Shown here one piece after another: positions 408 to 62,995 of a stretch of 64,000 nucleotides of DNA (position 1 is its first letter; every line of letters starts with the position of its first letter). Under the pieces are notes generated by a model that saw only the letters and a list, made by a program, of their open reading frames with translations, did no database searches and had not been told where the DNA came from. This DNA comes from Shinella zoogloeoides. GTDB lineage: Bacteria > Pseudomonadota > Alphaproteobacteria > Rhizobiales > Rhizobiaceae. Location of the stretch: assembly GCF_033705735.1 (NCBI RefSeq), contig NZ_CP131131.1:1364001-1428000 (forward strand). Direction: 5' to 3'. The position numbers were made by a program, and so were the translations under genes.

Positions 408-1652
408 TCAGCTCCGTTCTGGATGGAGTTCGTCGGCGCGAAGCACGCTTCGCAGCAATAGGTCAGCACCCTCGGCGCATTGCTGCGGCGAGGAGAATTC
501 GCGCTCGTTGTGCGACAGGCCCTCGCGCGAGGGAATGAAGATCATCGCCGCCGGCACCCTGCCGGCGACATGGGCCGCATCGTGGCCGGCGCCCGAAACC
601 ATGTCGATGGCGGAAAGACCAAGCGCCTCCGCCTCCTGACGGATCACCCCGCGCAATGCCGCATCGAAGACGACCGGCGCCTTGCGCCAGACGACGGAGA
701 CCTCCGCCCCCGGCACGAGCCGCTCGATATCGGCGGTCAGCGCCGCCTCAATCGCCGCAAGCCCCACCGCCTCGGGGTGACGCATGTCGATTTCGAGGCG
801 AACCTCGCCCGGCACGACATTGCGTGAATTCGGCATCGCATGGATATGGCCCACAGTAGCAACGCCCGGCGGATGTTTCAGCGCGACGGCCTCGGCGACA
901 AGCACGACCTTCGCCGCCGAAACCAGCGCGTCCGCGCGCAGGTTCATCGGGAAGGCGCCCGCATGGGCCTCCGTGCCGCGGATGCGGACATCCAGCCAGC
1001 AAAGCCCCTGCACGCCGCTGACGACGCCGACAGCGCTGCCATCAGCCTCCAGCACCGGACCTTGTTCGATATGCAGTTCCAGATAGGCCGCGAGCGGCAG
1101 GTGCCCCGGCGCATGCGCGCCGCGATAACCGATCGCCGCCAGCGCCTCGCCCACCGTCACCCCGTCCTTGTCCTTGCGGACGAGGATCGTTTCGAGATCG
1201 TGCACGCCGCAGAACACGCCGGAGCCCATCATGGCGGGCGAAAAGCGGGAACCTTCCTCGTTGGTCCAGTTGATGACCGTGAACGGATGGCGCAGCCGCC
1301 GCCCGGCGGCATGGAGCACCCGCAATATCTCCACCCCGGCCAGCACGCCGAGGATGCCGTCGAAACGCCCGCCGGCCGGCTGGGTATCGAGATGGCTGCC
1401 CACGGCGATGGCCGCAAGGCCGGGCTCCGTGCCGGGCAAGGTGGCGAACATGTTGCCGACGCCATCGACCTCGACGGTGCAGCCGAGCGCCCGGCATTCC
1501 GCCGTGAACCATCCGCGCACCGCGCCGTCGCTGGCGCTCAGCGCGAGCCGGTTCATGCCGGTCTCGCCATAAGCACCGATGCGGGCGGTCGACAGGATAT
1601 CGGACCACAGTCGCCCGGCATCGATGGCGAGCGCAGACGGGACTGCCGTCAT
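408..1652 (-). CDS. M20-family N-carbamoyl-amino-acid amidohydrolase (hydantoinase/carbamoylase type)
   Basis: This 414 aa protein belongs to the Zn-dependent allantoate amidohydrolase/N-carbamoyl-L-amino-acid hydrolase family, cytosolic enzymes that split ureido groups into CO2, NH3 and an amino acid. Metal-ligand motifs are visible: GSHLDT with His87, FDGILG with Asp98, WTNEEGSRF with Glu132/Glu133, LELHIEQGP with His194, and GAGHDAAH near the C-terminus. Length is normal. Its ATG overlaps the stop of the upstream ATC-hydrolase-like gene by 4 bases (ATGA), and RidA follows 2 bases downstream. Next to an ATC hydrolase and a racemase, a role as an N-carbamoyl-L-cysteine-type amidohydrolase (AtcC-like) is attractive. 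N-carbamoyl-glutamate, beta-ureidopropionate or allantoate remain possible substrates. Confidence 0.9.
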   Translation of the reverse strand: MTAVPSALAIDAGRLWSDILSTARIGAYGETGMNRLALSASDGAVRGWFTAECRALGCTVEVDGVGNMFATLPGTEPGLAAIAVGSHLDTQPAGGRFDGILGVLAGVEILRVLHAAGRRLRHPFTVINWTNEEGSRFSPAMMGSGVFCGVHDLETILVRKDKDGVTVGEALAAIGYRGAHAPGHLPLAAYLELHIEQGPVLEADGSAVGVVSGVQGLCWLDVRIRGTEAHAGAFPMNLRADALVSAAKVVLVAEAVALKHPPGVATVGHIHAMPNSRNVVPGEVRLEIDMRHPEAVGLAAIEAALTADIERLVPGAEVSVVWRKAPVVFDAALRGVIRQEAEALGLSAIDMVSGAGHDAAHVAGRVPAAMIFIPSREGLSHNEREFSSPQQCAEGADLLLRSVLRADELHPERS

Positions 1653-2179
1653 TCACCGGTCTCCTGCGGGGTCTCGTGGAAGCGGTACTTGAAGTCGCAA
1701 TGCGAGGCGCCCTCCATCACCGTCTGCGTGCGCTCCAGCGTGATGCGCGGATCGTAGCCGGTGCAGAACACGCCGTCGCGGTTGCAGGACAGGAGGTGAC
1801 CGATATGGCCGAGGCCCATCTCGCGATAGGTCTCGGCGTAGCGACATCGCTTGACGTTGTAGTGGAATTCCTCGTCCGTCGCCCTGGTGACCTCGATGAC
1901 GAGGGCGTCGTCCTGCGTCCACAGGTCCTGCAGTTCCTGGAAGGTGCGCAACGTCGTGCCGCCGGGCGTCTTGGCCGCGAAGTCCTTGCCGGCCTTGATC
2001 GCCGCCTTGCGGATGGCGGTGTCGAGGATGGACTGCGCCGTCTCCTCGCCGACCTGCCGGCGCATCTCCTCGTAGATCGGCGCGATGATGCCTGCCTCGA
2101 TCCTGCGGCGAGCGAGAATGCCGATCTCGCCATCCATGGCCGCCCGGGAATCGGGGCATTCGTTCTGCGTATCCGTCAT
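1649..2179 (-). CDS. L-2-aminothiazoline-4-carboxylate hydrolase family protein
   Basis: The 176 aa product resembles the ATC hydrolase family, whose characterised member (AtcB of Pseudomonas) opens L-2-amino-thiazoline-4-carboxylate to N-carbamoyl-L-cysteine. The visible family-like part is the C-terminal half: RCRYAETYREMGLGHIGHLLSC, then DGVFCTGYDPRITLERTQT and a final CDFKYRFHE segment, with conserved-looking Cys, Tyr and Asp residues. No signal peptide or membrane segment is seen. The start is placed at the ATG at 2177-2179 because it follows AGGAG at good spacing; upstream in-frame codons look non-coding. It overlaps the carbamoylase start by 4 bases. Relatives are also annotated only as hypothetical L-ATC hydrolases, so the substrate is uncertain, but the neighbouring carbamoylase and racemase support this chemistry. 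Confidence 0.8.
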   Translation of the reverse strand: MTDTQNECPDSRAAMDGEIGILARRRIEAGIIAPIYEEMRRQVGEETAQSILDTAIRKAAIKAGKDFAAKTPGGTTLRTFQELQDLWTQDDALVIEVTRATDEEFHYNVKRCRYAETYREMGLGHIGHLLSCNRDGVFCTGYDPRITLERTQTVMEGASHCDFKYRFHETPQETGE

Positions 2180-2213
2180 GGTCGTTCTCCTGATCCGGGC
2201 GGCGTGGCCGCCG

Positions 2214-2987
2214 CTACTGCATCCACAGGCGCCCGGCACCGGGCACGGTCTGCTTCTCACCGGCCTTCCGCAAGGCATCCCAGGCGAGCGCCTGATTGCT
2301 CGTCACCACCGGCTTGCCGATCGCCGCCTCCACGGCATCGATGATGCCGGAACAACGCAGCGCCGTGCAGGACAGGAACACCGCCTCCACATCCAGCCTG
2401 CCGATCTCGACGGCGGACCGCAATATGTCCTCCTCGCGAATGCGGGCGATGGAGACGTCGCTGTCCTGGTGGAAGCTGGCGCGGGCCGCGATATCGAGCC
2501 CGTTGGCGGCAAAGAAGCGCTCGACGCGCTTGTTGACCTCAGTGCTGTAAGGCGTGACGAGGCCGATCCGGCTGACGCCGAGCGCCCCGAAGGCGGCAAG
2601 GCTGGCGGAAACGGGATTGCACACCTTCACGCCGGGCCGCACCGTCTCGACGATATCGGCGATCCGCTCCGGCCCGATGACCATGGAGCCGGAGGTGCAG
2701 CCGAAGGCCACGACGTCGAGGCGGTCTTCCGGCAAAAGCAGCTCGACCGCCCGCGGCAGCGCGTCTGCCATCGCCGCAAGGCTTTCCGGCGACACGTCCC
2801 GCGCCATCGGAATGCGGCTGGAATAGACCTCGACGCCGGGCAATGGCAGGAAGCGACGGACCTCGGGCTCGATGACCGTATCGTTCGCCAGCACCACGAG
2901 GCCGATCGCCGCGCGAGCCGCCGGCCCGCCATCGAGAATGCAATCGAGCGGCACCCAGCCGCGGCTATCCCTGCCCATTTCCAACAT
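2214..2987 (-). CDS. Asp/Glu/hydantoin racemase superfamily protein (maleate isomerase/arylmalonate decarboxylase-like)
   Basis: This 257 aa protein has the two-lobed Asp/Glu racemase architecture, with one cysteine in each pseudo-symmetric half: Cys97 in FGCTSGSMVIG and Cys207 in LSCTALR. This arrangement is known from maleate cis-trans isomerases and aspartate, glutamate and hydantoin racemases, where the two thiols act as acid and base. Further family features are the CNPVSASLAAFGALG segment and TPYSTEVN. The start at 2985-2987 has GGGAGGA upstream. It is the first gene of the leftward operon. With an ATC hydrolase and a carbamoylase downstream, an ATC or hydantoin racemase is the most economical guess; maleate isomerase or arylmalonate decarboxylase cannot be excluded from sequence alone. 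Confidence 0.85.
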   Translation of the reverse strand: MLEMGRDSRGWVPLDCILDGGPAARAAIGLVVLANDTVIEPEVRRFLPLPGVEVYSSRIPMARDVSPESLAAMADALPRAVELLLPEDRLDVVAFGCTSGSMVIGPERIADIVETVRPGVKVCNPVSASLAAFGALGVSRIGLVTPYSTEVNKRVERFFAANGLDIAARASFHQDSDVSIARIREEDILRSAVEIGRLDVEAVFLSCTALRCSGIIDAVEAAIGKPVVTSNQALAWDALRKAGEKQTVPGAGRLWMQ

Positions 2988-3048
2988 TCGCGTCCTCCCT
3001 CGATATGGTCCATGATCTTGACCCATCGAAGGATGGCGCGCGGCGCTA

Positions 3049-4143: not shown

Positions 4144-5631
4144 CTAGGCTGCTGGATTTTCTCCGGCGATCAACGTCCGCAGCGCCTCGATATCGGCGCC
4201 GAGCGGCCGGTCGTCCTCGTAATGCGCGACGTTTTCACGAACCATGGAGTACACGGCCTGCGTGCCGGCGGCACGCTCGCCCATTCCCGTCAGGAAATCG
4301 TGCGCCTGTGCCGCCGCCATCAGCTCGATCGCCAGGATATGTTCCGCATTGTCGAGGATGGCCAGCAGCTTGTTGGCCGCCGCCGTCGGATGCGCGAGAA
4401 AATCTTCCTGCAGGCCTGAAGTGATGCCGCCATCCATCGCGGCGGGCGACGCCAGTCGGCGGTTTTCCGTGCTGAGCGCCGTTGCCGTATATTGCGCGAT
4501 CATGAAACCGGAATGGCTGCCGGCGTCACTGGCCAGGAAAGGCGGCAGGCCGCTGACAAGCGGGTTGACCAGACGGTCCATCCGCCGCTCGCTCATGGCC
4601 GCGATCTGGGCGATTGCGACCGCGAGGCTGTCGGCGGCCTGCCCCAGTGCCGGCGCGACGGCATGGGCCTGCGAGGACACGACCGGCTGCTCGGGCGTAC
4701 CGGAAACGGCGGGATTGTCGGTAACGGACGCCAGTTCGCGATCAACGATGGCGCCGCTCTGCTCGAAGACGTCCCAGGCCGCGCCATGCGCATGGGGAAC
4801 CGCACGCAGGCTGAGGGCATCCTGCGTGCGCCTTCCGACGGCCGCAGCGACCAGGCCGCTTCCGGCGAGGCGCGCACGCAACGTCGCCCCGACCTTGGCA
4901 ATGCCCGCGGACGGCCGCAGGGCGAGAACCGCCTCATCGAAAGCCGCCATCTGGCATCCAGCCGCCTCAAGCGTCAGCGCGGCGATCACATCGGCCCATT
5001 TGAGCAGCCGTTCGGCGCGCGACAGGGCAAGCGAGGCCAGACCGGTCGCGCAGGCCGTGCCGTTGACCAGGCTCAAGCCCTCCTTGGCCTCCAGCACCAG
5101 CGGCGAAAGGCCGATGGTCGCGAGCGCCTCGCGGCCGGTCATGCGTTCACCTCGCACGGCGGCATGCCCCTCGCCGATCAGGACGAGCGCGGTATGGGCA
5201 TTGTGGGTAAGGTAGCCCGCCGACCCCTTGGAGGGCACATCGGGAATGCAATCCTTCGAAAGAAAGGCTGCGAGATGGCTGACGACCGCCGGACGCACGC
5301 CGGAATGGCCGTGGCAGAAATTGGCGATCTGCGCGGCGATGATCGCGCGAACCTCGCGCGGCGCCAGCAGCGGGCCGACACCGCAGGCATGGCTCAGCAC
5401 GATGTTGCGCGAAAGCCGGCTCTGCGATGCGATATCGACAACCGTGTCGGAAAGCGCGCCGACGCCCGTATTGACGCCATAGGCACGGATGCCCGCAGTC
5501 ACGATGGCGTCGACGATCTCTCTTGCCCGTGCGAGACGGGCGATCGCCCGGTCGGAGAGGACCAACGTTTCCCCCTCGCCGATCCGCGCGACCTCCCGCC
5601 AGGAAAGCCCGTTGTCGAGAACGACGCTCAT
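4144..5631 (-). CDS. Histidine/aromatic ammonia-lyase homologue lacking the MIO tripeptide
   Basis: This 495 aa protein aligns end to end with histidine ammonia-lyases: YGVNTGVG (Tyr51, equivalent to HAL Tyr53), LVNGT (Asn190), [29 protein letters not shown]. However, where HAL has KGSVG-ASG-DLAPLAH, this protein has KGSAG directly followed by YLTHNAH (residues 135-146): the Ala-Ser-Gly that cyclises to the MIO cofactor is missing. HAL Tyr280 (in DxYSLR) is Leu273, and the GNFHG loop is SQAHA. It therefore cannot be a normal MIO lyase. MIO-independent homologues are known; ergothionase, which eliminates trimethylamine from ergothioneine, is one. The ATG overlaps the stop of the ABC ATPase gene by 4 bases, so it is the last gene of a transporter operon, opposite a HutC-like repressor. 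Histidase annotation would be misleading; ergothionase-like is a hypothesis. Confidence 0.85.
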
Positions 5632-6404
5632 TGACCGCTGCCGAAATGGCCGATGAACTGCCGGAAGGCCGGCGATGCGCCGCCGCCGAACATCTCGTCG
5701 GGCGTGCCGCTGCTGTCGACGAGGCCCTGGCGCATGAAGACGACGCGGTTGGACACGTTGCGCGCAAAGCTCATTTCATGCGTGACGACCAGCATCGTCA
5801 TGCCCTCCTCGGCCAGCGCGCGCATGACGCGCAGCACTTCGCCGACGAGTTCCGGATCGAGCGCCGAGGTCGGCTCGTCGAACAGCATCACCTTCGGCTT
5901 CATGGCGAGCGCGCGGGCGATGGCCGCGCGCTGCTGCTGGCCGCCCGACAGATGGGCCGGATAGGCATGGCGCTTGTCGGCGATGCCGACCTTTTCCAGC
6001 AGCGCTTCAGCCTCGGCGATGCATTCGGCCTTGGGGCGCTTCAGCACATGGACGGGTCCCTCGATGATATTCTGCAGGATCGTCATATGGGACCAGAGAT
6101 TGAAGCTCTGGAACACCATACCGAGTTCGGAGCGGATATGATCGACCTGCCTCTGGCTTGCCGGGCGGCTCTGGCCGTTCTTCTGCACCATGCGGATCTG
6201 CTCGCCGTCGACGAAGATCTCGCCGGAGGTCGCCGTTTCCAGGAGGTTGATGCAGCGCAGGAAAGTCGATTTGCCGGAGCCGGAGGCGCCGAGCAGCGAA
6301 ATCACGTCGCCGTCCTCGGCATCGAGCGAAATGCCGCGCAGCACTTCATGGTTGCCGAAGCGCTTGTGAATGTCGCGGACGGAAAGGCGGGTCACACCAG
6401 GCAT
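5628..6404 (-). CDS. Polar amino-acid ABC transporter, ATP-binding protein
   Basis: The 258 aa product is a GlnQ/HisP-type ATPase powering an amino-acid importer at the inner face of the membrane. It has Walker [10 protein letters not shown] near residue 40, a Q-loop region [13 protein letters not shown], the HisP-like insertion with QIRMVQKNG, signature LSGGQQQR, Walker [13 protein letters not shown] and the switch His in [10 protein letters not shown]. The start at 6402-6404 ([11 protein letters not shown]) follows GGGAGGCC; longer in-frame starts would read through the permease gene in another frame. It follows the permease gene by 14 bases and overlaps the lyase-like gene by 4. Confidence 0.93.
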
Positions 6405-6418
6405 CGGTCGGGCCTCCC

Positions 6419-7126
6419 TCAGGCTTTGACTGCCGACGGCGGGGCCGCGCGGCGATGTTTCGAGAGCGAACGTTCCAGCAGCGCCATGGCCTGCAGGATC
6501 AGGAAATTCAGAACGAGATAGATGAGCGCGGCGCAGAGGAAGACCTCCATCGTCCGGTAGGTCTGCGAAATCAGGCGCTGTGCGACGCCGGTGACCTCCC
6601 AGACGGTGACGAGGCTGGCGAGCGCGGTCGACTTCATCATCAGCACGATTTCCGTCGAATAGGCCGGCAGGGCATGACGGAAGGCGATCGGCGCTATGAT
6701 GCGGCGAACGAGAAGGAAGCCCGACATGCCGATCGCGCGGGCCGCCTCGATCTCCTTCGGCGAGACGGCGCGGATGCCGCTGCGGAAGATTTCCGCGGAG
6801 TACCCCGCCGTGCAGAGCGCCAGCGACAGCACGGCGCAGACCACCGGCTCGCGCAGGAACGGCCAGAGGAAGGAATAGCGGATGACGCCGAACTGGCCGA
6901 GCCCATAGAAGACGAGGAACATCTGGATCAGCAGCGGAGAGCCGCGGAAGACGAAGATGTAGCCCTTGGCGAAGCCGGAGAGGAAGCGGTTGCCGGAAAC
7001 ACGCATCGTGACGATCACCAGCGCCAGCAGGCCGCCGAAGAACACCGAGAGCGAGAACAGCAGGAGCGTCGTGGGCACGGCTGCAAGCAGCGTGGCCATC
7101 GCGGAGGAAAGAAAGGCGATATCCAT
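6419..7126 (-). CDS. Polar amino-acid ABC transporter permease (HisM-type)
   Basis: This 235 aa inner-membrane permease has about five hydrophobic segments and the EAA loop typical of the HisMQ family ([38 protein letters not shown]). It pairs with the 241 aa permease encoded just upstream; the two genes overlap by one base (TGATG), so translation is likely coupled. With the ATPase and the periplasmic binding protein it completes an opine/lysine-arginine-ornithine-type importer. Substrate cannot be read from the sequence; the co-transcribed lyase homologue suggests an imidazole-type amino acid or betaine. Confidence 0.92.
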
Positions 7127-7851
7127 CAGGCCTGCCCCATGGCTGCGGCCGGCATGCTGCGGTTTGCGCGCCGTTCGGCACGGTTGAACAGCCGGTCAGA
7201 AAGGCTCGTAAGCACCAGGTAAAGAATGCCGCCGACGATGTAGAAAAGGAAATACTGCCGGGTCGAACCCGCCGCCACCTGGCTGGTGCGCATCAGTTCG
7301 GCAAGGCCGGTGACGGAGATCAGCGCGGAATCCTTGAGGGTGAGCTGCCAGACATTGCCGAGACCGGGAATGGCGAAGCGCAGCACCTGGGGCATGACGA
7401 CACGGCGCAGGCGCAGCATGCGGTTCATGCCGATCGCCGAGGCCGCCTCGAGTTCGCCCTTGGCGATGGCGAGATAGGCGCCGCGATAGACTTCGGCCTG
7501 GTAGGAGCCGGAGATGATGCCGACGGCGAGCGCGCCGGCGGCAAAGGACGGCAATCCGAGGAACCCTTCATACCCCATCCACTGGCCGACGGCCGTGACG
7601 GCCGAAGAGCCGCCGAAATAGATGAGATAGATGATCAGCAGTTCCGGCACGCCGCGAAAAACGGTCGTATAGATATTGCCGAGGCTGACCAGCAGCAGGT
7701 TGCCCGACAGTTTGGCAATGGCCACCACGGTGCCGAGCACGGCCCCGATCAAGAGCGCCGTTGCCGTCACTGCGAGCGTCATCAGCGTGGCGACCAGAAG
7801 CAGTGCGCCCCACCCGTTCTGGCCGAAGCCAAGGAGTTCCAAGGTTGTCAT
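7126..7851 (-). CDS. Polar amino-acid ABC transporter permease (HisQ-type)
   Basis: The 241 aa protein is the first of two HisMQ-type permeases. It carries an N-terminal hydrophobic stretch ([20 protein letters not shown]), the segment [17 protein letters not shown] and the EAA loop [33 protein letters not shown] that docks the ATPase. It lies 91 bp downstream of the binding-protein gene, with a stem-loop in between, and overlaps the next permease by one base. The product works as a heterodimer with that protein in the cytoplasmic membrane. Confidence 0.92.
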
Positions 7852-7942: not shown

Positions 7943-8785
7943 CTATTCCTGCGGGCTGACGTCCACCTTGAACCACTTCATCGACAGCTCCTTCACGGTT
8001 CCATCGGCAAGCGCCGACTTGATGGCCTCGTTGAACTTGTCGCGCAGATCCGTATCCGCCTTGCGGATGCCGAGACCTTCGCCCTCGCCCCAGATCGGGC
8101 CGACGATTTCCGGGCCTGTGAAGGCGAGCGCGCCGTTGGCGGCGGCAAAGGCGTTGCCGAAATAGACGGCATCGTCGAAGCCGAGGTCGATGCGGCCGTT
8201 CTGGAGGTCCAGATCGCGCTCGGCGCCGGTCTTGTACTCCCGGACTTCAGACGTCGCGCCGAAATTGTCGTAGATGAACTTCGCGTAGACGGTCGCGGCC
8301 TGGATACCGATGGTCTTGCCCGCGAAAGCTTCCTTCAGAGCCTCGATCTCCTTCACGCCGGTCTGGCCGGACGTCATCTTGATGATCGCGCCCGTTCCGG
8401 TCGCGTTTGCCACGGGGCTGTCCGCCGCCGTCGCGAAAGCCGCCGGCGTTGCGGCATAGGGGATGGTGAAATCGATGACCTTCTTGCGCTCTTCGGTTAT
8501 CGACAGCGCATCCATGATCACGTCGAACTTGCCGGCATTCAGAGCCGGGATCATGCCATCCCAGTCGGATGCGACGAGCGTGCACTCGATCTTGGCGCGT
8601 TCGCAAAGCACCTTTGCAAGCTCGGGCTCGAAGCCGCCGAGCGTGCCGTCCGCATTGGTAAGGTTCCAGGGCGCATAGGCACCTTCGAGCGTGATAGTGG
8701 CTGACTTCCAGTCCTTGGCGAGGACGGGAGCAGAAAGCGCGGCAAAAGCGGCCACGCCGGCAAGAAAGACTTTCCGCAGTTCCAT
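7943..8785 (-). CDS. Periplasmic amino-acid-binding protein of the ABC importer (family 3)
   Basis: This 280 aa protein starts with a Sec signal peptide (MELRKVFLAGVAAFAALSAPVLA, cut after residue 23) and continues as a family-3 solute-binding protein: ITLEGAYAPWN, GFEPELAKVLCERA, DWDGMIPALNAGKFDVIMDALSIT and ERKKVIDFTIPYA. The start at 8783-8785 has AGGAG upstream and begins with the signal peptide; in-frame codons further upstream lie in the operator region. First gene of the operon binding protein, two permeases, ATPase, lyase homologue. A HutC-like operator lies 85 bp upstream. Closest in type to lysine/arginine/ornithine or octopine binders; the ligand is unproven. Confidence 0.93.
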   Translation of the reverse strand: MELRKVFLAGVAAFAALSAPVLAKDWKSATITLEGAYAPWNLTNADGTLGGFEPELAKVLCERAKIECTLVASDWDGMIPALNAGKFDVIMDALSITEERKKVIDFTIPYAATPAAFATAADSPVANATGTGAIIKMTSGQTGVKEIEALKEAFAGKTIGIQAATVYAKFIYDNFGATSEVREYKTGAERDLDLQNGRIDLGFDDAVYFGNAFAAANGALAFTGPEIVGPIWGEGEGLGIRKADTDLRDKFNEAIKSALADGTVKELSMKWFKVDVSPQE

Positions 8786-8869: not shown

Positions 8870-8888
8870 TTGTATATGGTACCATAGG
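8870..8888. promoter_or_regulatory. HutC-like operator, copy 1
   Basis: TTGTATATGGTACCATAGG contains the perfect 12 bp palindrome TATGGTACCATA (8875-8886). It sits between the divergent binding-protein and HutC-like genes. The first 15 bases (TTGTATATGGTACCA) recur with one mismatch at 9716-9730, ahead of the molybdenum hydroxylase genes. The GntR/HutC family binds short palindromes of this kind, so this is the probable operator for both divergent promoters. Confidence 0.6.
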
Positions 8889-8959: not shown

Positions 8960-9715
8960 ATGAAACGTAGCCATGAAATGCGGGACGAGCTGGCGGCAAA
9001 TGATACGACGCCTCTCTATGTCGGCGTCAAGCAGATCATTCTCGACAGGATTCGCAGCGGGGAATGGCCGCCGAAGCATCGCGTTCCTTCGGAGAACGAG
9101 CTCGTGGCCGAACTCGGCGTCAGCAAGATGACAGCCAACCGCGCCCTGCGCGAGCTCGCAAGCGAAGGCGAACTCGTTCGAATCCAGGGCGTCGGCTCCT
9201 TCGTCGCCGAGCCCAAGGGCGTATCGACCCTGTTCGAGGTCCGCAACATCGCCGACGAGATTGCGGAACGGGGCCACACCCACGAAGCGAGAGTGGTCGC
9301 GCTGGCGGAAGCCTCCGCGCCCCCGGATGTTGCCGATGCCCTGGGCCTGGAAATCGGGGCACCCGTCTTCCATTCTCTCATCGTGCACAGCGAGGAAGGC
9401 GTGCCGGTGCAGATAGAGGACCGCTATGTGCATCCCGGCGTAGCGCCCGACTATCTCGGCCAGGACTTCTCGGCCACCACGCCGAATGCCTACCTGTCGG
9501 CCATCGCCCCCCTCAGAGGCTCCGAACATGTCGTCGAGGCGACGATTCCGCAGCCTTGGGAGTGCAAGCTGCTGATGATCCTGAAAACCGAGCCCTGCCT
9601 GATGATCCGGCGGCTGACCTGGTCGGATCGCAGCATCGTCTCCATCACGCGCATTATCTATCCAGGGCAACGATATCGCCTTGAAAGCCGCAGCGGCACC
9701 AAGCCTACCCCTTAA
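8960..9715 (+). CDS. hutC: HutC-like GntR-family repressor (UTRA effector domain)
   Basis: The 251 aa protein has a GntR winged HTH at residues 17-85 (LYVGVKQIILDRIRSGEWPP, VPSENELVAELGVSKMTANRALREL) followed by a UTRA ligand domain with FEVRNIADEIAERGH, HSLIVHSEEGVPVQIEDRYV and TTPNAYLSAIAPLRGSEHVVEA. These match histidine-utilisation repressor HutC, which is released from DNA by urocanate. Here the repressor stands opposite an amino-acid ABC operon ending in a MIO-less lyase homologue, with no canonical hutU/I/G nearby. It may therefore sense a urocanate analogue, for example thiourocanate. The last residues (SRSGTKPTP) look divergent. Confidence 0.88.
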   Translation: MKRSHEMRDELAANDTTPLYVGVKQIILDRIRSGEWPPKHRVPSENELVAELGVSKMTANRALRELASEGELVRIQGVGSFVAEPKGVSTLFEVRNIADEIAERGHTHEARVVALAEASAPPDVADALGLEIGAPVFHSLIVHSEEGVPVQIEDRYVHPGVAPDYLGQDFSATTPNAYLSAIAPLRGSEHVVEATIPQPWECKLLMILKTEPCLMIRRLTWSDRSIVSITRIIYPGQRYRLESRSGTKPTP

Positions 9716-9730
9716 TTGTATATGGAACCA
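9716..9730. promoter_or_regulatory. HutC-like operator, copy 2
   Basis: TTGTATATGGAACCA begins at the first base after the HutC-like stop codon and matches 14 of 15 bases of copy 1 at 8870-8884. The right half is less palindromic (GGAACCA instead of GGTACCA). It lies about 300 bp before the molybdenum-hydroxylase operon, so it may bring that operon under the same repressor. Confidence 0.5.
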
Positions 9731-10023
9731 CTTCCAGTCGCGCATCCAGAGATATCCCGGCCGCGCCCGCGCATAGCCATGGCCGAAGAGGGACCGCATG
9801 TAGGCCGTATCGAAATCGTCGGCACCCTGGAACCGCGATAACCATCACCGTATTTTGACCGGACTTGCGCCAGCCGCTTCCCTGAATGTCGGACCCGACT
9901 TGTATCGAACCAGCGCATCCCATAGCGTTGTCGAGCGACGGCAAGAGCCGTATCGTCGCAGCGGCGTTTGCAACGGATTGCAAGCTCCCATCCCGACCCG
10001 ACTTCATCACGAGGAGAAGCCCT
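9731..10023. other. Non-coding leader of the molybdenum-hydroxylase operon
   Basis: About 290 bases with no convincing gene; short open frames here lack a ribosome-binding site and family resemblance. Apart from the operator-like copy at its left edge and an AGGAG ribosome-binding site near 10011, nothing specific is seen. A long 5' leader or a second promoter is possible. Confidence 0.5.
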
Positions 10024-10884
10024 TTGCGCTATGTTCGCCCAGATTCGTTGGAGGATGCCATTGACCTGCTGGCTGAAGCGTCAGGCAAAGCCGCGATATT
10101 GGCCGGCGGGAGCGATTTGCTGGTGAGAATGAAAGGAGGGTTCATCGAGCCTGACCTAATCATCGATATCAAAGGCGTGGATGCCCTGAGACGCGTGAGC
10201 GAAAACGACGAAGGTTTCGTCATAGGCGCCGCAGTGCCTTGCGCCGTTCTGGGCGAGAATGCAGCGCTCAGGCGCGCATGGCCGGGTGTTGTCGAGGGAG
10301 CGACCCTGATCGGTTCCAAACAGGTACAGGGACGCTGTACGATCGTCGGGAACCTCTGCAATGCGTCCCCCGCGGCTGACAGCGTGCCCGCCCTCGTGGC
10401 CGCTGGCGCCAAGGCCCTGATCAGAGGGCCAGCCGGTTCCCGTACGATCGCTGTCGAAATGATACCGGTCGGGCCCGGCAGGACATCACTCGCACCCGGC
10501 GAGATCATCGAAGCCATTCTGCTCGACAAGCGCCGGCCGCATTCGGGCGACGCCTATCAACGGTTCACACCGCGAACGGAGATGGACATCGCCGTCGTCA
10601 GCGCCGCGGTAAATCTCACCCTCGATGATCAGGGCGTCGTCGAGGCAGCGCGCGTCGCGCTGGGCGCCGCGGCGCCGACGGTGCTCCTGGTCAAAGAGGC
10701 GGCCGATATCCTGATCGGCTCCCGTGTCGACATCAGCACGCTGGACCGCCTCGCCGAGGCCTGTTCCAGCGCCTGTCGCCCGATAGACGACAAGCGAGGC
10801 ACTGTGGAATTCCGAAAGAAGGTCGCGGGCGTGCTGGCCAAGCGGGTCGCGCTGACCGCCTATCAACGTGCAGGACAAAAGTGA
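10024..10884 (+). CDS. Molybdenum hydroxylase, FAD-binding medium subunit (CoxM/XdhB type)
   Basis: The 286 aa product is the FAD-binding subunit of a xanthine-dehydrogenase-family hydroxylase. Family features are the N-terminal LRYVRPDSLEDAIDLLAE, the FAD pyrophosphate motif AGGSDLLVRMK, the second flavin motif TIVGNLCNASPAADSVPALVAAGA and the CO-dehydrogenase C-terminal domain. A TTG start at 10024 is chosen because it follows AGGAG at 7-8 bases and gives the normal N-terminus; an in-frame ATG at 9886 would add 46 unrelated residues. Its stop overlaps the next start (TGATG). It passes electrons from the Fe-S subunit to FAD; the acceptor is unknown. Confidence 0.92.
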   Translation: MRYVRPDSLEDAIDLLAEASGKAAILAGGSDLLVRMKGGFIEPDLIIDIKGVDALRRVSENDEGFVIGAAVPCAVLGENAALRRAWPGVVEGATLIGSKQVQGRCTIVGNLCNASPAADSVPALVAAGAKALIRGPAGSRTIAVEMIPVGPGRTSLAPGEIIEAILLDKRRPHSGDAYQRFTPRTEMDIAVVSAAVNLTLDDQGVVEAARVALGAAAPTVLLVKEAADILIGSRVDISTLDRLAEACSSACRPIDDKRGTVEFRKKVAGVLAKRVALTAYQRAGQK

Positions 10885-11360
10885 TGGCAGGCATAGCAGT
10901 TTCGACGACAATCAATGGCGATCATGCCGAGTTCCTCTGTCATCCCGACGAGACGCTGCTTGAAGTGCTGCGCGAACGCCTGGGGCTGATGGGCGTAAAG
11001 GAAGGTTGCGGCACGGGCGACTGCGGCGCCTGCAGCATCGTCCTCGACGACCGGCTGGTTTGCTCCTGTCTGGTGCTCGGGGCCGAGGCGGAAGGCCGCC
11101 GGATCGCCACAGTAGAGGGCATGGCACAGGGCGACAGGCTTCACCCGCTGCAACAGAAGTTCCTCGAGCATGCCGCTTTGCAGTGCGGCATCTGCACACC
11201 CGGCTTTCTCATCGCCGCCCAGGATCTGCTGGCCAAGAATCCGGATCCCACCGAAGAGGAAATACGCTTCGGTCTTGCCGGAAATCTCTGTCGTTGCACC
11301 GGCTATGACAAAATAGTGCGTGCGGTTCAGGACGCGGCCAGCGTTATGAGAGGAGCATGA
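10884..11360 (+). CDS. Molybdenum hydroxylase, [2Fe-2S] small subunit
   Basis: This 158 aa protein carries both Fe-S clusters of the enzyme. The N-terminal plant-ferredoxin-type cluster uses Cys42, Cys47, Cys50 (CGTGDCGAC) and Cys62; the C-terminal four-helix domain cluster uses Cys101, Cys104, Cys136 and Cys138 (QCGICTPGF and LCRCTGY). The ATG at 10884 overlaps the preceding stop. Order medium-small-large matches many CoxMSL-type or xanthine-dehydrogenase-like operons. All ligands are present, so the protein should be functional. Confidence 0.95.
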
Positions 11361-13615
11361 CCATGAATTTCGATCCCCGCCACACGACACGCAGCTTCTC
11401 CTCCGTCGGCACGCGGCCCATCCGGCCCGACGGCATCGACAAGGTGACGGGCCGCGCGCGCTATGGTGCCGATTTCAATATGCCCGGCCAGCTGGTCGGA
11501 CGGATCTTGCGCAGCCCGCACGCCCACGCCGTCATTCGCAGGATCGACACGTCGAAGGCCGAGCAACTTCCCGGCGTCAAGGCCGTGGTGACGGCGGCGG
11601 ACCTGCCCGACCTCACGAGCGGCGATGCCGCCATGTATGACATTCTCGATAACTGCATGGCGCGCAGGAAGGCGCTCTACGACGGGCACGCCGTGGCCGC
11701 CGTGGCGGCGATCGATGCACGCACCGCCAGACAGGCGCTCAAGCTCATCGAAGTCGAGTATGAACTCCTGCCGCACGTCACCGACGTCGACCAGGCATTT
11801 GCCGCGGATGCTCCGCTTATCAACGACACGATCATCACGACGGGCGTCGATCCGAAGCCGGATCGCGCTTCGAATGTTTCGATGCGCAGCCAGTTCGGAC
11901 ATGGTGACGTCGATGCCGGCATGGCAAAGGCGGATTTCGTGGTCGAGCGGACGTTCAAGACCGAACAGACCCATCAGGGCTATATCGAGCCTCATGCCTG
12001 CGTGGCCAATGTCAGCCCGGACGGTACGGCGGATCTGTGGGTTTGCACGCAGGGCCACTTCGTCTATCGCCAGCATTGCGCACAACTGCTCGGCATGGAT
12101 GCCTCCAAGCTGCGCGTAACGTCGTCGGAAATCGGCGGCGGCTTCGGCGGCAAGACGCATGTCTGGGCTGAACCCGTCGCGCTCGCGCTGTCGCGCAAGG
12201 CCGGCAGGCCGGTCAAGCTGGTCATGACGCGCGACGAGGTATTTCGCGCGACCGGCCCGACCAGCGCCACGTCGATCGACGTGAAAATCGGCGCGATGAA
12301 GGACGGAACGATCGTCGCAGCCGATGCTACCCTTCGCTATTCGTGCGGTCCCTATGCGGGATCCTGGGCCGAGGTCGGCGCCATGACCGCATTTGCCTGC
12401 TACAAGCTCGAGAATGTCAGGACCGTCGGCTACGAGGTGCTGGTAAACCGGCCGAAGACGGCGGCGTATCGTGCACCCTCCGCGCCAATGGCGGCGTTTG
12501 CGGTGGAAAGCGCCATAGACGAGCTTGCCGGGAAGGTCGGCATGGATGCCGTGGACTTTCGCATCAAGAACGCGGCACAGGAAGGGACCAAGGCATCCTA
12601 TGGTCCGGTCTACGGCCCGATTGGCATCGGCCCGACACTGGAAGCTGTAAAGAACCATCCGCACATGAAGGCGCCCCTCGGCGAGAACCAGGGACGCGGC
12701 ATGGCGTGCGGCTTCTGGTTCAACTTCGGCGGCCAGACATGTACCGACCTGAATATCGGAATGGACGGCACCGTCTCGCTTGCGGTCGGCACGGTGGATG
12801 TCGGTGGTTCGCGCGCATCGCTCTCGCTGGTGGCGGCAGAGGAACTCGGGATCGACTACGCGCAAGTCAGAGCGGTGATCGCCGATACGTCGAGCCTCGG
12901 CTACAACGACATGACGGACGGCAGCCGCGGCACCTTCTCGTCCTCGATGGCCACCATCTCTGCCGCTCGCAACGCGATCAAGGTCCTTCGCGCGCGTGCG
13001 GCGCAGATGTGGGACATCCCGGTCGAGGACGTGACGTGGGAAAAGGGCCATGCCGTCGCCAAGGGCGAAACGCATGGAAACCTTCCGAATCTGTCCTTGA
13101 AGGAGATTGCGGCTGCGTCGGGCACCACTGGCGGCCCGATTGCCGGTCATAGCGAAATCGTGGCGGATGGCGCCGGCGTGTCCTTCGCGACCCATATCTG
13201 CGATATCGAGGTCGATCCCGAAACGGGGGCCACCAGGGTCCTGCGCTACACCGTGGTGCAAGACGCTGGCAAAGCCGTGCATCCAACCTATGTCGAGGGA
13301 CAATACCAAGGCGGCGCCGCGCAAGGCATCGGCTGGGCGCTCAACGAAGAATATATCTACGGCAAGGACGGCCGGCTGCAGAATGCGGGCTTTCTCGACT
13401 ACCGCATACCCGTATGTTCGGATCTGCCCATGATAGACACGCAGATCCTCGAGATCCCCAACCCCAATCACCCCTATGGGGTTCGCGGCGTCGGGGAAAC
13501 CTCCATCGTCCCCCCGCTTGCGGCGGTGGCCAATGCGGTGTCCAATGCGGTAGGTGTGCGGATGCAGCATATTCCCATGTCGCCGCCGCGGATTCTGGCG
13601 GCGCTTGAGACGTAA
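11357..13615 (+). CDS. Molybdenum hydroxylase, molybdopterin-binding large subunit
   Basis: The 752 aa catalytic subunit binds the molybdopterin-cytosine-dinucleotide cofactor. Visible motifs are GGGFGGK near residue 258, AYRAPSAPMAAFAVESAID (the loop that in true CO dehydrogenase reads AYxCSFR, here absent), GQYQGGAAQGIGWALNEE and the C-terminal GVGETSIVPPL with the catalytic Glu. It is therefore not a CO dehydrogenase but a hydroxylase of N-heterocycles, aldehydes or similar. It overlaps the small-subunit gene by 4 bases. In this setting it could hydroxylate a heteroaromatic ring or intermediate; the substrate cannot be predicted. Confidence 0.93.
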   Translation: MTMNFDPRHTTRSFSSVGTRPIRPDGIDKVTGRARYGADFNMPGQLVGRILRSPHAHAVIRRIDTSKAEQLPGVKAVVTAADLPDLTSGDAAMYDILDNCMARRKALYDGHAVAAVAAIDARTARQALKLIEVEYELLPHVTDVDQAFAADAPLINDTIITTGVDPKPDRASNVSMRSQFGHGDVDAGMAKADFVVERTFKTEQTHQGYIEPHACVANVSPDGTADLWVCTQGHFVYRQHCAQLLGMDASKLRVTSSEIGGGFGGKTHVWAEPVALALSRKAGRPVKLVMTRDEVFRATGPTSATSIDVKIGAMKDGTIVAADATLRYSCGPYAGSWAEVGAMTAFACYKLENVRTVGYEVLVNRPKTAAYRAPSAPMAAFAVESAIDELAGKVGMDAVDFRIKNAAQEGTKASYGPVYGPIGIGPTLEAVKNHPHMKAPLGENQGRGMACGFWFNFGGQTCTDLNIGMDGTVSLAVGTVDVGGSRASLSLVAAEELGIDYAQVRAVIADTSSLGYNDMTDGSRGTFSSSMATISAARNAIKVLRARAAQMWDIPVEDVTWEKGHAVAKGETHGNLPNLSLKEIAAASGTTGGPIAGHSEIVADGAGVSFATHICDIEVDPETGATRVLRYTVVQDAGKAVHPTYVEGQYQGGAAQGIGWALNEEYIYGKDGRLQNAGFLDYRIPVCSDLPMIDTQILEIPNPNHPYGVRGVGETSIVPPLAAVANAVSNAVGVRMQHIPMSPPRILAALET

Positions 13616-59164: not shown

Positions 59165-60574
59165 ATGAACAAAATCAGTAACTCAGAAGCATTGCTCGCA
59201 CAGGGTGACGTCCAGTCACGGCGGATCGTGCTCGAAATCGCGGATCGCACGCTGGAGCGGCTCGACAGCTACCACCGCATCCGCTCCATCATGCGGATGG
59301 ACGGCGATATACTCACCATCGGCACGCGGTCCTGGGACCTGTCGAAGAAGCGGAACGTCTACCTGTTCGGCGCCGGCAAGGCCTGCAACCACATGGCGAT
59401 GGCGGTGGATCACGTTCTCGGCGACCGCCTGACACGCGGCATCGCCATCGTGAAGATCCACGAGGAGACCGACCGCTTCAACAAGACGGAAGTCCATGTC
59501 GGCGGCCATCCGCTGCCGAACGAAGAGGGTTTCCGGGCTTCGAGGAAGATGATCGAGATCGTCGATCAGGCGGGGCCGGACGATCTTTTCATCGCCGTCA
59601 TCAGCGGCGGCAGCTCGGCACTAATGTCCTGCCCCATCGATGGCATTTCCCTCCAGGACGAGATCGACACGACCGACGTGCTGCTGAAGTCCGGCGCCGG
59701 CATCGTCGAGATCAACGCCGTGCGCCGGCACATTTCGGCGCTGAACGGCGGCATGCTCGCCAAACGCATTCAGGATGTTGGCGCGGAGCTGATCGGCTTC
59801 GGCATTTCCGATGCGGTCGGCTCGCCGGCGACGGGCGATATCGCCGTCCCTTATGCCGCCTACAAGAGCACGCCCATCGGCCCCGACGCCACGACGCTGG
59901 ACGACGCGCGGGCGACCATCGTCAATTACGACGTCGCCGATCGCCTGCCGAAAAGCGTGGTCGACTACCTGATGAATGCGGGGCCGGACAAGGAAACGCC
60001 GAAGGCCTTTCCGGACAACACCTATTTCCTGCTCAACACGCTGCCGGATTCCTGCGTCTACGCCAAGGAAGCCTGCGCGGAGATGGGCATTCCCGCCGTC
60101 ATCCTCACCTCCTTTCTCGAAGGTGAAAGCCGCGATGCGGGCACCTTCCTCGCCTCGATGGCGCGCGAGATCCAGACCTACGGCAATCCGGTCAGGGCGC
60201 CCTGCGTGCTGCTCAGCTCCGGCGAGGTCACGACGCAGATTCTCGACAATTCCACCATCAAGGGCCATGGCGGCCCCGGCCAAGAGATGACGGTGAGCTT
60301 CGCCATCACAGCCGCCAAGACGAAAGGTGCGTGCCTGCTCTCCATCGACAGCGAAGGCACCGACGGCACGGCGAAGGTCGCCGGCGGCATCACCGATTCC
60401 ACCAGCCTCAAGGCGGCGACCGGCAAGGGCATCAGCCTCTACCAGGCGCTGCGCGAGCACAGCTGCTTCGAGGCGCTCGACGCCATCGGCTCCGCGGTCT
60501 TCACCGGCAATACCGGCACCAACCTCTGCGACCTCAACATCCTCTACGTCCCGGCGCTCGAGAAGGACAAATGA
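59165..60574 (+). CDS. Glycerate 2-kinase (DUF4147/MOFRL type)
   Basis: This 469 aa protein belongs to the GckA/TtuD family that phosphorylates D-glycerate to 2-phosphoglycerate. Visible motifs are VYLFGAGKACNHMAMAVDHVLG, GGHPLPNEEG, ISGGSSALMSCPIDGISL, INAVRRHISALNGGMLA, ISDAVGSP and the C-terminal MOFRL region with LLSSGEVTT, GGPGQEM and TDGTAKVAGG. The length is slightly longer than the usual 420-450 aa. A start is placed at the ATG at 59165 with only a weak site. It overlaps the enolase-like gene by 4 bases, so product would be passed to enolase. Confidence 0.9.
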   Translation: MNKISNSEALLAQGDVQSRRIVLEIADRTLERLDSYHRIRSIMRMDGDILTIGTRSWDLSKKRNVYLFGAGKACNHMAMAVDHVLGDRLTRGIAIVKIHEETDRFNKTEVHVGGHPLPNEEGFRASRKMIEIVDQAGPDDLFIAVISGGSSALMSCPIDGISLQDEIDTTDVLLKSGAGIVEINAVRRHISALNGGMLAKRIQDVGAELIGFGISDAVGSPATGDIAVPYAAYKSTPIGPDATTLDDARATIVNYDVADRLPKSVVDYLMNAGPDKETPKAFPDNTYFLLNTLPDSCVYAKEACAEMGIPAVILTSFLEGESRDAGTFLASMAREIQTYGNPVRAPCVLLSSGEVTTQILDNSTIKGHGGPGQEMTVSFAITAAKTKGACLLSIDSEGTDGTAKVAGGITDSTSLKAATGKGISLYQALREHSCFEALDAIGSAVFTGNTGTNLCDLNILYVPALEKDK

Positions 60575-61851
60575 CCATGGAAGACAAGATCACATCCGTC
60601 CGTGCCCAGCAGATCATCGACTGCAAGTGCCGCCCGGCCGTCGAGGTCGAGATCCGTACAGAGAGCGGCGCCGCCGGGCGCGGGGCTGCCCCCACCGGCA
60701 CCTCGGTCGGCATGCACGAGGCCTTCATCCTGCGCGACGGCGACCGGTCCAGCTACAACGGCCTCAGCGTCCACAAGGCGGTCGAATATGCCATCGATAT
60801 CATCGGCCCGGCCCTCGTCGGCATGAATGTCTTCGACCAGCGCGCCATCGATATGAGGATGATCACGCTCGACGGCACGCCGGACAAGCACAATCTCGGC
60901 GGCAATACCATCTATTCCGCCTCCATCGCCGCCTTCCGCGCAGCGGCCGACTCGCGCCGCATGCCGCTCTACAGGCACATTGCCGGCCGGGACATCCGCA
61001 CCGTTCCGGTGCCCTGCTTCAACATCGTCAACGGCGGGCGCTACGAGACGCTGACGCAGGCCTTCAACGAATTCCTGATCGTCCCCTACGGCACCGACAG
61101 CATCGACTTCGCCGTCGAGATGGCCGTGACGGTGTTCCAGAAACTCGCCGAAGTCCTGACGAAACATCTCGGCCACAAGCCGCAGGTCGCGAGCTCCTAC
61201 GGCTATGCCGCGCCCTCAGACGACCCGGAGGTCATTCTTGCCCTGATGCAGGAGGCCATCGACGCCTGCGGCTATACCGGCCGCATCGCCTTCGCGCTCG
61301 ATTGCGCCTCGAGCGAGATGTACGACAAGGAGGCCCGCACCTATCTGCTGAAGGGCAAGCAGGTCACCAGCGACGAGCTGATCGCCTATGCCAAGAGCCT
61401 GACGGAAAAGTTCAATATGGTCTTCATCGAGGATCTCCTCGATGAGAACGACTGGGACGGCTATAGCAAGGCGGTTCGGGAGCTGACCCGCACCATCGTT
61501 CTCGGCGACGACCTCACCGTCACCAGCCCTGCTCTCCTGAAACGCGCCCATGAGACGCGGGCCGTCGATGGCTTCATCCTCAAGCCCAACCAGGTCGGCA
61601 CGATCACCGAGGCGATGGACGCCCATCGTTTCGCCAGCGAGAACGGCATGTTCTCCGTCCCCTCCGGCCGCTCCGGCGGCATGGTCGACGATGTGGTGAT
61701 GGATTTTTCCGTCGGCCTCGAAGTGCCCTTCCAAAAGAACGGCGCACCACGCTCGGGCGAGCGCATAGAGAAGCTGAACTTCCTGATGCGCGCCAATGCC
61801 GCAAGCCCCGGCTGCCGCCTCTACGACATCAAGCCCCTCCTCCGGTTCTAA
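60571..61851 (+). CDS. Enolase-superfamily protein, divergent (catalytic His replaced)
   Basis: The 426 aa protein aligns with enolase along its length: PTGTSVGMHEAFILRDGD (for PSGASTG), magnesium ligands Asp244 (LDCASSE), Glu287 (IEDLLDENDW) and Asp314 (GDDLTV), catalytic Lys338 (LKPNQVG) and the C-terminal GAPRSGERIEKLN. The enolase SHRSGETED loop here reads SGRSGGMVDD: the His that binds the phosphate/hydroxyl region is Gly366. N-terminal DSRGNPT is DCKCRPA. It may be a less active or specialised enolase that converts 2-phosphoglycerate from the kinase to phosphoenolpyruvate, or act on a related 2-phospho acid. GTG/ATG ambiguity is absent; ATG at 60571. Confidence 0.87.
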   Translation: MTMEDKITSVRAQQIIDCKCRPAVEVEIRTESGAAGRGAAPTGTSVGMHEAFILRDGDRSSYNGLSVHKAVEYAIDIIGPALVGMNVFDQRAIDMRMITLDGTPDKHNLGGNTIYSASIAAFRAAADSRRMPLYRHIAGRDIRTVPVPCFNIVNGGRYETLTQAFNEFLIVPYGTDSIDFAVEMAVTVFQKLAEVLTKHLGHKPQVASSYGYAAPSDDPEVILALMQEAIDACGYTGRIAFALDCASSEMYDKEARTYLLKGKQVTSDELIAYAKSLTEKFNMVFIEDLLDENDWDGYSKAVRELTRTIVLGDDLTVTSPALLKRAHETRAVDGFILKPNQVGTITEAMDAHRFASENGMFSVPSGRSGGMVDDVVMDFSVGLEVPFQKNGAPRSGERIEKLNFLMRANAASPGCRLYDIKPLLRF

Positions 61852-61873
61852 ATCTCAAGAAAAGGTTGTTTCC

Positions 61874-62995
61874 ATGTATCCCAGGATCGATTTCACCTAT
61901 CTCTCGGAACCCGACATGATCGCCGCCGGCGTGCTGGACGCCGGGCGTTGCGTCGAGGTGTGCGAGGAGACCTTCAGCCTGCTCGGCAAGGGCGACTACC
62001 TGATGGGCGGCGCCAACCACAACAGCCACGGCCTCAACATCGTCTTTCCGAAGGAGACGACGTTCCCGAACATGCCGGTCGCCGGTCCCGACCGGCGCTT
62101 TGCCGCCATGCCCGGCTATCTCGGCGGTCGCTTCGACGTCTGCGGCAACAAGTGGTACGGCTCGAACCACGCCAACATGGAAAAGGGCCTGCCGCGCTCG
62201 ATCCTGACCATGATGCTCAACGACAAGGACACCGGCGCGCCGCTGGCCCTGATGTCGGCCAACCTCTTGAGCGCAGCGCGCACCGGCGGCGTGCCGGGCG
62301 TCGCCGCAAAGCATCTCGCCAACAAGGACGCCGAGGTCGTCTCGGTCGTCGGCTGCGGCCCCATCAACAAGGCCTGCTTCACCGCGATCATGACCCAGCT
62401 CGGCGCGGTCAGGAAGGTCGTCTGTTTCGACCTCTTCCTCGACAAGGCAAAGGAGTTCGCGAACTGGGCGGCGGCGGAATACGGCGTCGAAGCCGTCGGC
62501 GTCGACGATACCGAGGCCGGCTTCCGCGGCGCGGACGTGATCACCGTCGCAGCCTCCCGCCTGAAACCCCTGTTCTTCAAGGACGAGTGGATCAAGGAAG
62601 GCGCGACGATCCTCGTCTCCGGCCCGTTCAACACGGACGAATCCTTCCTGACCAGCGCCAGGATCGTCTACGACCATACATCCCTGCAGGAAGCCTATGT
62701 CGAGGACGCCATCGCCTCCGGCAACAAGGATGCCTATTACGGTAGCGTCATCGGCGGCCCGTTCTTCCGCCTCATCGATGCCGGCAAGCTGCCGGCGCTG
62801 AAGGATTCGACGGGCCTCGGCGATGTCGTCAACGGCGAGAAGCCCGGCCGGGAGAACAGCAGGGAACGCGTGATCTTCATCGCCTGCGGCATGGCCGTCT
62901 TCGATATCAGCTGGGGCTTCGATCTGCTCCAGAACGCCAAGGCCAAGGGAATCGGCCAGAGCCTCAACCTCTGGGAAAGACCCAGTCAGGGATGA
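61874..62995 (+). CDS. Ornithine cyclodeaminase/mu-crystallin-family protein
   Basis: The 373 aa protein has the OCD/mu-crystallin fold with substrate-binding GGANHNSHGLNIVFP and GNKWYGSNHANMEKGLPRS, ANLLSAARTGGVPGVAAKHLA, and the nucleotide motif VVSVVGCGPINKACFTAI. Members are ornithine cyclodeaminases, ketimine reductases or alanine dehydrogenases. The start at 61874 has AAAGG upstream. It ends the glycerate-kinase operon and is followed by a strong bidirectional hairpin. Substrate unknown; an amino or imino acid with NAD(P)H is expected. Confidence 0.88.
   Translation: MYPRIDFTYLSEPDMIAAGVLDAGRCVEVCEETFSLLGKGDYLMGGANHNSHGLNIVFPKETTFPNMPVAGPDRRFAAMPGYLGGRFDVCGNKWYGSNHANMEKGLPRSILTMMLNDKDTGAPLALMSANLLSAARTGGVPGVAAKHLANKDAEVVSVVGCGPINKACFTAIMTQLGAVRKVVCFDLFLDKAKEFANWAAAEYGVEAVGVDDTEAGFRGADVITVAASRLKPLFFKDEWIKEGATILVSGPFNTDESFLTSARIVYDHTSLQEAYVEDAIASGNKDAYYGSVIGGPFFRLIDAGKLPALKDSTGLGDVVNGEKPGRENSRERVIFIACGMAVFDISWGFDLLQNAKAKGIGQSLNLWERPSQG

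Follow-up and report, generated by a model that had tools for sequence, protein, structure and literature searches.

A histidase-family lyase lacking the MIO sequence in a Shinella zoogloeoides transporter operon, with hercynine as its proposed substrate

The stretch of DNA analysed here, the window, comprises 64,000 nucleotides of Shinella zoogloeoides (contig NZ_CP131131.1, positions 1,364,001 to 1,428,000). On its minus strand, at 4144..5631, lies a gene for a MIO-less histidase-family lyase of 495 residues, characterised by translation, alignment, AlphaFold2 modelling and residue comparison and proposed here as a hercynine trimethylamine-lyase. Its start codon overlaps the stop codon of an upstream ABC transporter ATPase frame (5628-5631), in agreement with the operon placement given in a preliminary description of this DNA. 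The same strand carries the ATPase itself (5628..6401, start codon estimated), two permeases identified from open frames and conservation in related loci (6419..7126 and 7126..7851), and a periplasmic binding protein, SBP_bac_3, assigned by family and structure searches (7943..8782, start estimated in a frame open to 8932). The ATPase adjoins the lyase in 57 of 80 related loci, these being the best 80 of at least 583 matches. Adjoining this operon on the plus strand is a HutC-family regulator (8960..9715; TIGR02018, 289 bits against a cut-off of 220). The best solved relatives of the binding protein are octopine-binding (201 bits) and nopaline-binding (183 bits) proteins, a histidine-binding protein reaching 110 bits; it is of the amino-acid type, kin of binders of N-alpha-substituted amino acids, which would suit hercynine and also opines.

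Two boxes flank the regulator gene: TTGTATATGGTACCA (8870..8884, plus strand), a putative operator ahead of the transporter-lyase operon, and TTGTATATGGAACCA (9716..9730, plus strand), located by box search at the end of hutC. The consensus TTGTATAxGGTACCA was drawn from these two sites, which are the two exact copies in the genome. Allowing up to two substitutions, it is found in the 500 bases that precede the binding-protein gene in 55 of the 57 loci that have the transporter, all within the best 80 of at least 583 matches, and a similar box stands at the hutC end in many related loci. With two mismatches the box is not enriched in the window genome (three occurrences, below four for the reversed control), and for that reason its weight comes from the 55 of 57 loci. 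We predict that the divergent HutC paralogue binds this box.

Other genes of the window were considered as a guide to substrate. Directly downstream of the hutC paralogue, beginning past the second TTGTATATGG box, a three-subunit xanthine-dehydrogenase-like enzyme is encoded at 9886-13615 (plus strand). At 408-3026 (minus strand) EutA-like, ATC-hydrolase family and carbamoylase genes stand consecutively, the carbamoylase scoring 354 against 520 bits with the ErtE model, with a divergent LysR gene; this row has the look of a pathway of its own, for N-carbamoyl compounds or hydantoins. These neighbours were dropped because none, the xanthine-dehydrogenase-like trio included, was found beside the lyase in related loci (best 80 of at least 583 matches, at the thresholds used, 9 of the 80 loci being incomplete). 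At 59165-62995 (plus strand) we saw, by eye from open frames, MOFRL-type glycerate kinase-like, enolase-like paralogue and ornithine-cyclodeaminase-like genes in a row.

Alignment with Pseudomonas putida histidine ammonia-lyase (HAL) shows that a three-residue deletion removes the ASG of KGSVGASGDLAPLAH, leaving a shortened MIO loop (residues 135-146, codons at 5192..5227, minus strand); no ASG in that context occurs anywhere in the 495 residues. Leu273 stands at HAL Tyr280 and S320-Q-A-H-A324 at the GNFHG loop, while Tyr51, Asn190 and TDNP (304-307) are retained, all as first described. The preliminary description also had the catalytic Tyr lost, which is right for Tyr280 but not for Tyr53: this residue, the catalytic base of HAL, is retained as Tyr51, and therefore Tyr280 alone is lost. 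The AlphaFold2 model (mean pLDDT 89.9, pTM 0.91, residues 400-408 below 50) has the HAL fold, intact as had been claimed, and its closest folds are histidases and the ergothionase 6s7j. From such a loop no MIO group can form, and a histidase with MIO is excluded by the missing ASG and the three-residue deletion. The protein does not reach the NCBIfam hutH cut-offs (459.2 against 539.15 bits, and 459.1 against 524 bits).

The loop belongs to a clade rather than to one aberrant gene. It is shortened in 80 of 80 related loci (the best 80 of at least 583 confirmed matches in the genome collection). Among 398 genomes sampled from the phylum, counts for which come from related genomes, 23 hold homologues of at least 393 bits (46-100% identity), the next match scoring 299 bits, and in all 23 homologues GY(L/I)xH replaces the ASG loop. 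Weaker matches yielded no further MIO-less proteins in the 16 genomes re-examined, every readable loop being ASG. A pooled non-redundant set contained 105 GYLTH-type, 96 ASG-type and five other sequences, one of which (L143) carries ASG, leaving four MIO-less others; the GYLTH type forms one clade (SH-aLRT 100 and 99) in two trees built with loop columns removed. Purifying selection is indicated by dN/dS of 0.12-0.18 between the window lyase and four relatives. With a clade-wide loop, a single clade and these ratios we dropped a pseudogene reading, which the preliminary description had also rejected. Where the closest 120 proteins are named in databases, they are called “histidine ammonia-lyase” or “HAL/PAL/TAL family ammonia-lyase”; the label histidine ammonia-lyase is very probably wrong for proteins of the MIO-less clade.

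We compared active-site residues, by HAL numbering, between 105 GYLTH and 83 canonical HutH sequences. Tyr53, His83, Asn195, Gln277, Arg283, Met382 and Glu414 are identical in 105/105 and 83/83. New and invariant in the GYLTH clade are Tyr140, His143, Leu273 (HAL Tyr280) and Tyr381 (HAL Val386), and HAL Phe329 has become Ala (86/105) or Pro (19/105). The ergothionase residues Ser195, Gly382 and Lys386 and the GxxD loop, a signature taken from three sequences (Treponema denticola and two ergothioneine-cluster homologues), are absent from the window protein by alignment. Because the HAL residues are kept and those of ergothionase are absent, the imidazole pocket of the clade, as judged from these positions, is that of a histidase and not that of a thio-imidazole enzyme.

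Genomic context ties the clade to histidine utilisation. On Rhizobium etli p42e a complete hut operon (hutD, U, G, H, I, F, C), whose HutH carries a normal ASG, adjoins the hutC-SBP-permease-permease-ATPase-lyase module. In the 15-20 kb round the lyase of 22 of the 23 genomes, the lyase stands among hut genes in 18/22: HutI is present in 18/22, HutU in 16/22, HutG in 17/22, HutF in 16/22, and an ASG-type HutH homologue in the same stretch in 15/22; urocanase occurs in all 23 lyase genomes. Among the best 80 of at least 583 matches, the stretch includes HutI in 30 loci and a homologue of HutC2 in 65. The window genome also has a full hut operon and an ASG-type HutH; the operon is carried by contig C1 but the lyase by C2, so that hut enzyme genes are not beside the lyase.

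The carriers beside the lyase vary: the 22 loci have ProX-type ABC systems (10), BCCT carriers (2), amino-acid-type ABC systems (8) or neither (2), and one of the two BCCT loci also has an OsmF-type protein close to a second MIO-less gene. ProX or BCCT occurs in 12 of the 22 lyase loci and in none of 40 hut loci from lyase-less genomes (Fisher p 3e-7), these controls having been chosen by hand and all having an ASG-type HutH and no GY loop. Two of the 40 have weak OsmF-like matches (26-27% identity), and p becomes 2e-5 if OsmF is counted too. By genus the link is weaker, with quaternary-amine carriers, OsmF type included, in 6/13 against 2/29 (p 0.006). Within genus g114, ProX stands beside the lyase in 5/5 genomes and is absent from 4/4 fetched lyase-less genomes. 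Pfam confirmed the OpuAC and BCCT domains; NCBIfam matches to ProX, OsmF and betaine BCCT stay under cut-offs, and the ATPase of locus L114 exceeds the cut-off of its betaine/proline/choline family model (367 against 327 bits). In Agrobacterium locus L051 the lyase and HutC are accompanied by an OsmF-like system. Counting against hercynine, histidine too can be taken up by ProX-type hut carriers, as it is by HutXWV of Sinorhizobium meliloti.

Other MIO-less HAL homologues were seen in the course of this survey. A further subfamily, in L199 (8977-10368), L122 (5010-6545, minus strand) and L205, reads GAAD in the loop and has Arg at the position of HAL 83 and either Val or Ala at that of 195; OsmF-type carriers adjoin the gene in L199 and L122, and its members may cleave the betaine of some other amino acid. 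The homologue in L200 (5893-7533, S. meliloti pSymA) has GQAD as its loop and begins with what looks like a signal peptide; among solved structures it is closest to ergothionase (296 bits).

We propose, at a probability of roughly 0.6, that the window protein is a hercynine (N-alpha-trimethyl-L-histidine) trimethylamine-lyase making urocanate, the substrate being deduced from the clade-wide loss of MIO, the invariant pocket, the hut linkage and the quaternary-amine carriers in several lineages. Permethylation would make the alpha-amine a good leaving group, and the MIO electrophile would then be unnecessary. Hercynine would bind as histidine does in HAL, with Arg276 and Glu409 holding the carboxylate and imidazole, and Tyr51 would remove the beta proton; the space vacated by the MIO loop would take the trimethylammonium, with Tyr140, His143, Leu273 and Tyr381 as nearby candidates, and trimethylamine would depart without covalent activation. 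Urocanate would pass to HutU, HutI, HutF and HutG, and the divergent HutC paralogue would probably control the transporter-lyase operon via the TTGTATAxGGTACCA box. The carrier of the window speaks against hercynine, as it is of the amino-acid/opine type, like those of 8/22 lyase loci, and 2/22 have neither type. Other N-alpha-substituted histidines are also candidates because of this carrier and because the genome carries its hut operon on a different replicon.

A lyase that makes urocanate from such a compound, histopine or N-alpha-dimethylhistidine among them, would explain the hut linkage equally well and accord with a binding protein closest to the octopine- and nopaline-binding proteins; a HutH-like reaction with any such N-alpha-substituted histidine would look no different in these data. 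It would, however, leave the ProX and BCCT carriers unexplained, and the amines of opines are poor leaving groups without MIO, so we consider it unlikely. Quaternary-amine carriers would be equally unexplained if the protein cleaved no amine and were a urocanate isomerase, a non-catalytic HutH partner or a sensor. The conserved urocanate/histidine pocket, the hut loci and the ASG-type HutH in the same stretch in 15/22 would fit such roles, but the base Tyr53, Arg283 and Glu414 are invariant in 105/105 and pairing with HutH is not fixed, and we give these roles little credence. It is highly improbable that the protein is a histidine ammonia-lyase working without MIO: the HutH-identical pocket and database naming would suit this, yet ASG is missing, the scores fall under both hutH cut-offs (459 against 539 and 524 bits), and the same genome already has a HutH of the ASG type and a full hut operon.

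The preliminary description had favoured a betaine or thio-imidazole lyase; the former, as a trimethylamine lyase, is probably correct, but the latter fares poorly. An ergothionase, which converts ergothioneine to thiourocanate and trimethylamine, or an enzyme acting on ergothioneine sulfonate, has in its favour that MIO-less relatives with such activity exist (6s7j), that both have Leu at HAL 280, and that the GYLTH clade groups with ergothionase at support 87. The tree neither establishes nor rejects this grouping (other groupings have AU p 0.62 and 0.58, and the ergothionase rows are long branches) and does not separate one MIO loss shared with ergothionases from two losses. PMC13405746 cites a pathway for ergothioneine sulfonate found in Agrobacterium radiobacter. 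We nevertheless regard such an activity as improbable, as the loop deletion is another one, Ser195, Gly382 and Lys386 are not present, the window protein is closer to HAL (292 bits, against 200 for T. denticola ergothionase; profile scores 474 against 309), and the linkage is to hut and not to ergothioneine genes. Thiohydantoin desulfurase exceeds its cut-off in only 3/23 lyase genomes, leaving 20/23 without it (the best relative in the window genome scores 109.5 against 440 bits), and each of the three has its own ergothioneine-type locus; ergothioneine breakdown therefore has another protein at hand there. Most bearers of the lyase are without a known path for thiourocanate. Genomes G253, G107 and G043 hold the GYLTH lyase and a second HutU-like protein (51-52% identity), with another HAL homologue 4-5 kb away from the latter. 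This extra homologue has a GCAD loop in G107 and G253, the two of the three genomes that were read, and in G107 it matches ergothionase best among solved structures (158 bits, against 132 for HAL). The G107 cluster exceeds the cut-offs for thiourocanate hydratase (1061/930 bits), thiohydantoin desulfurase (602/440), ErtD (788/600) and ErtE (620/520, although a Zn-hydrolase model scores higher, 788). In L204 (9205-16607) and L203 (3077-10733) the cluster for ergothioneine degradation is complete and includes an ergothionase-like gene with the GCAD loop, a type without its own NCBIfam model.

On slightly better than even odds, we suggest that an unnamed hercynine trimethylamine-lyase opens another way into the hut pathway for many Pseudomonadota (the clade occurs in 23/398 sampled genomes), that the histidase fold has given up MIO in at least two different forms, an electrophile being unnecessary for a permethylated amine, and that the several MIO-less subfamilies beside quaternary-amine carriers make up a wider group of amino-acid-betaine lyases. 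If true, this would explain why many hut clusters hold a second “histidase”, give a fate to hercynine, from which ergothioneine is made, and add a further bacterial source of trimethylamine. It would also be a natural experiment on the purpose of MIO, in which the same pocket meets a leaving group activated by methylation and not by the enzyme. Within the open-licence PMC literature, no work on hercynine breakdown or the GYLTH clade was found by title or abstract opening. PA5093 of Pseudomonas aeruginosa is given as hutG in PMC12772324. We take PA5093 to be a HAL-family gene and hutG to be PA5091; if so, a HutC-regulated member of the GYLTH clade may be mislabelled in that paper.

The proposed lyase resembles HutH (PDB 1b8f, 7tqr) in its fold, in the conserved residues Tyr53, His83, Asn195, Gln277, Arg283, Met382 and Glu414, and in its hut context and HutC control. 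In contrast to HutH, the window clade has no ASG and no MIO, has Leu for Tyr280, Ala or Pro for Phe329 and Tyr for Val386, and the window protein scores below the hutH family cut-off. HutH1 of Pseudomonas hut operons, to which no function is known to have been assigned, is probably a member of the GYLTH clade, a match that we infer; in genomes of genus g114 a GYLTH gene lies directly ahead of the ASG-type HutH. Ergothionase (T. denticola 6s7j and the ergothioneine-cluster homologues of the Rhizobium family) is likewise a histidase fold without MIO, shares Leu at HAL 280, Tyr53, Arg283 and Glu414 with the GYLTH clade, and presumably eliminates trimethylamine as the proposed lyase would. It differs in its one-residue deletion (GxxD loop) and in Ser195, Gly382 and Lys386, and the ergothionase-like gene of L204 is linked to thiourocanate hydratase, desulfurase, ErtD and ErtE.
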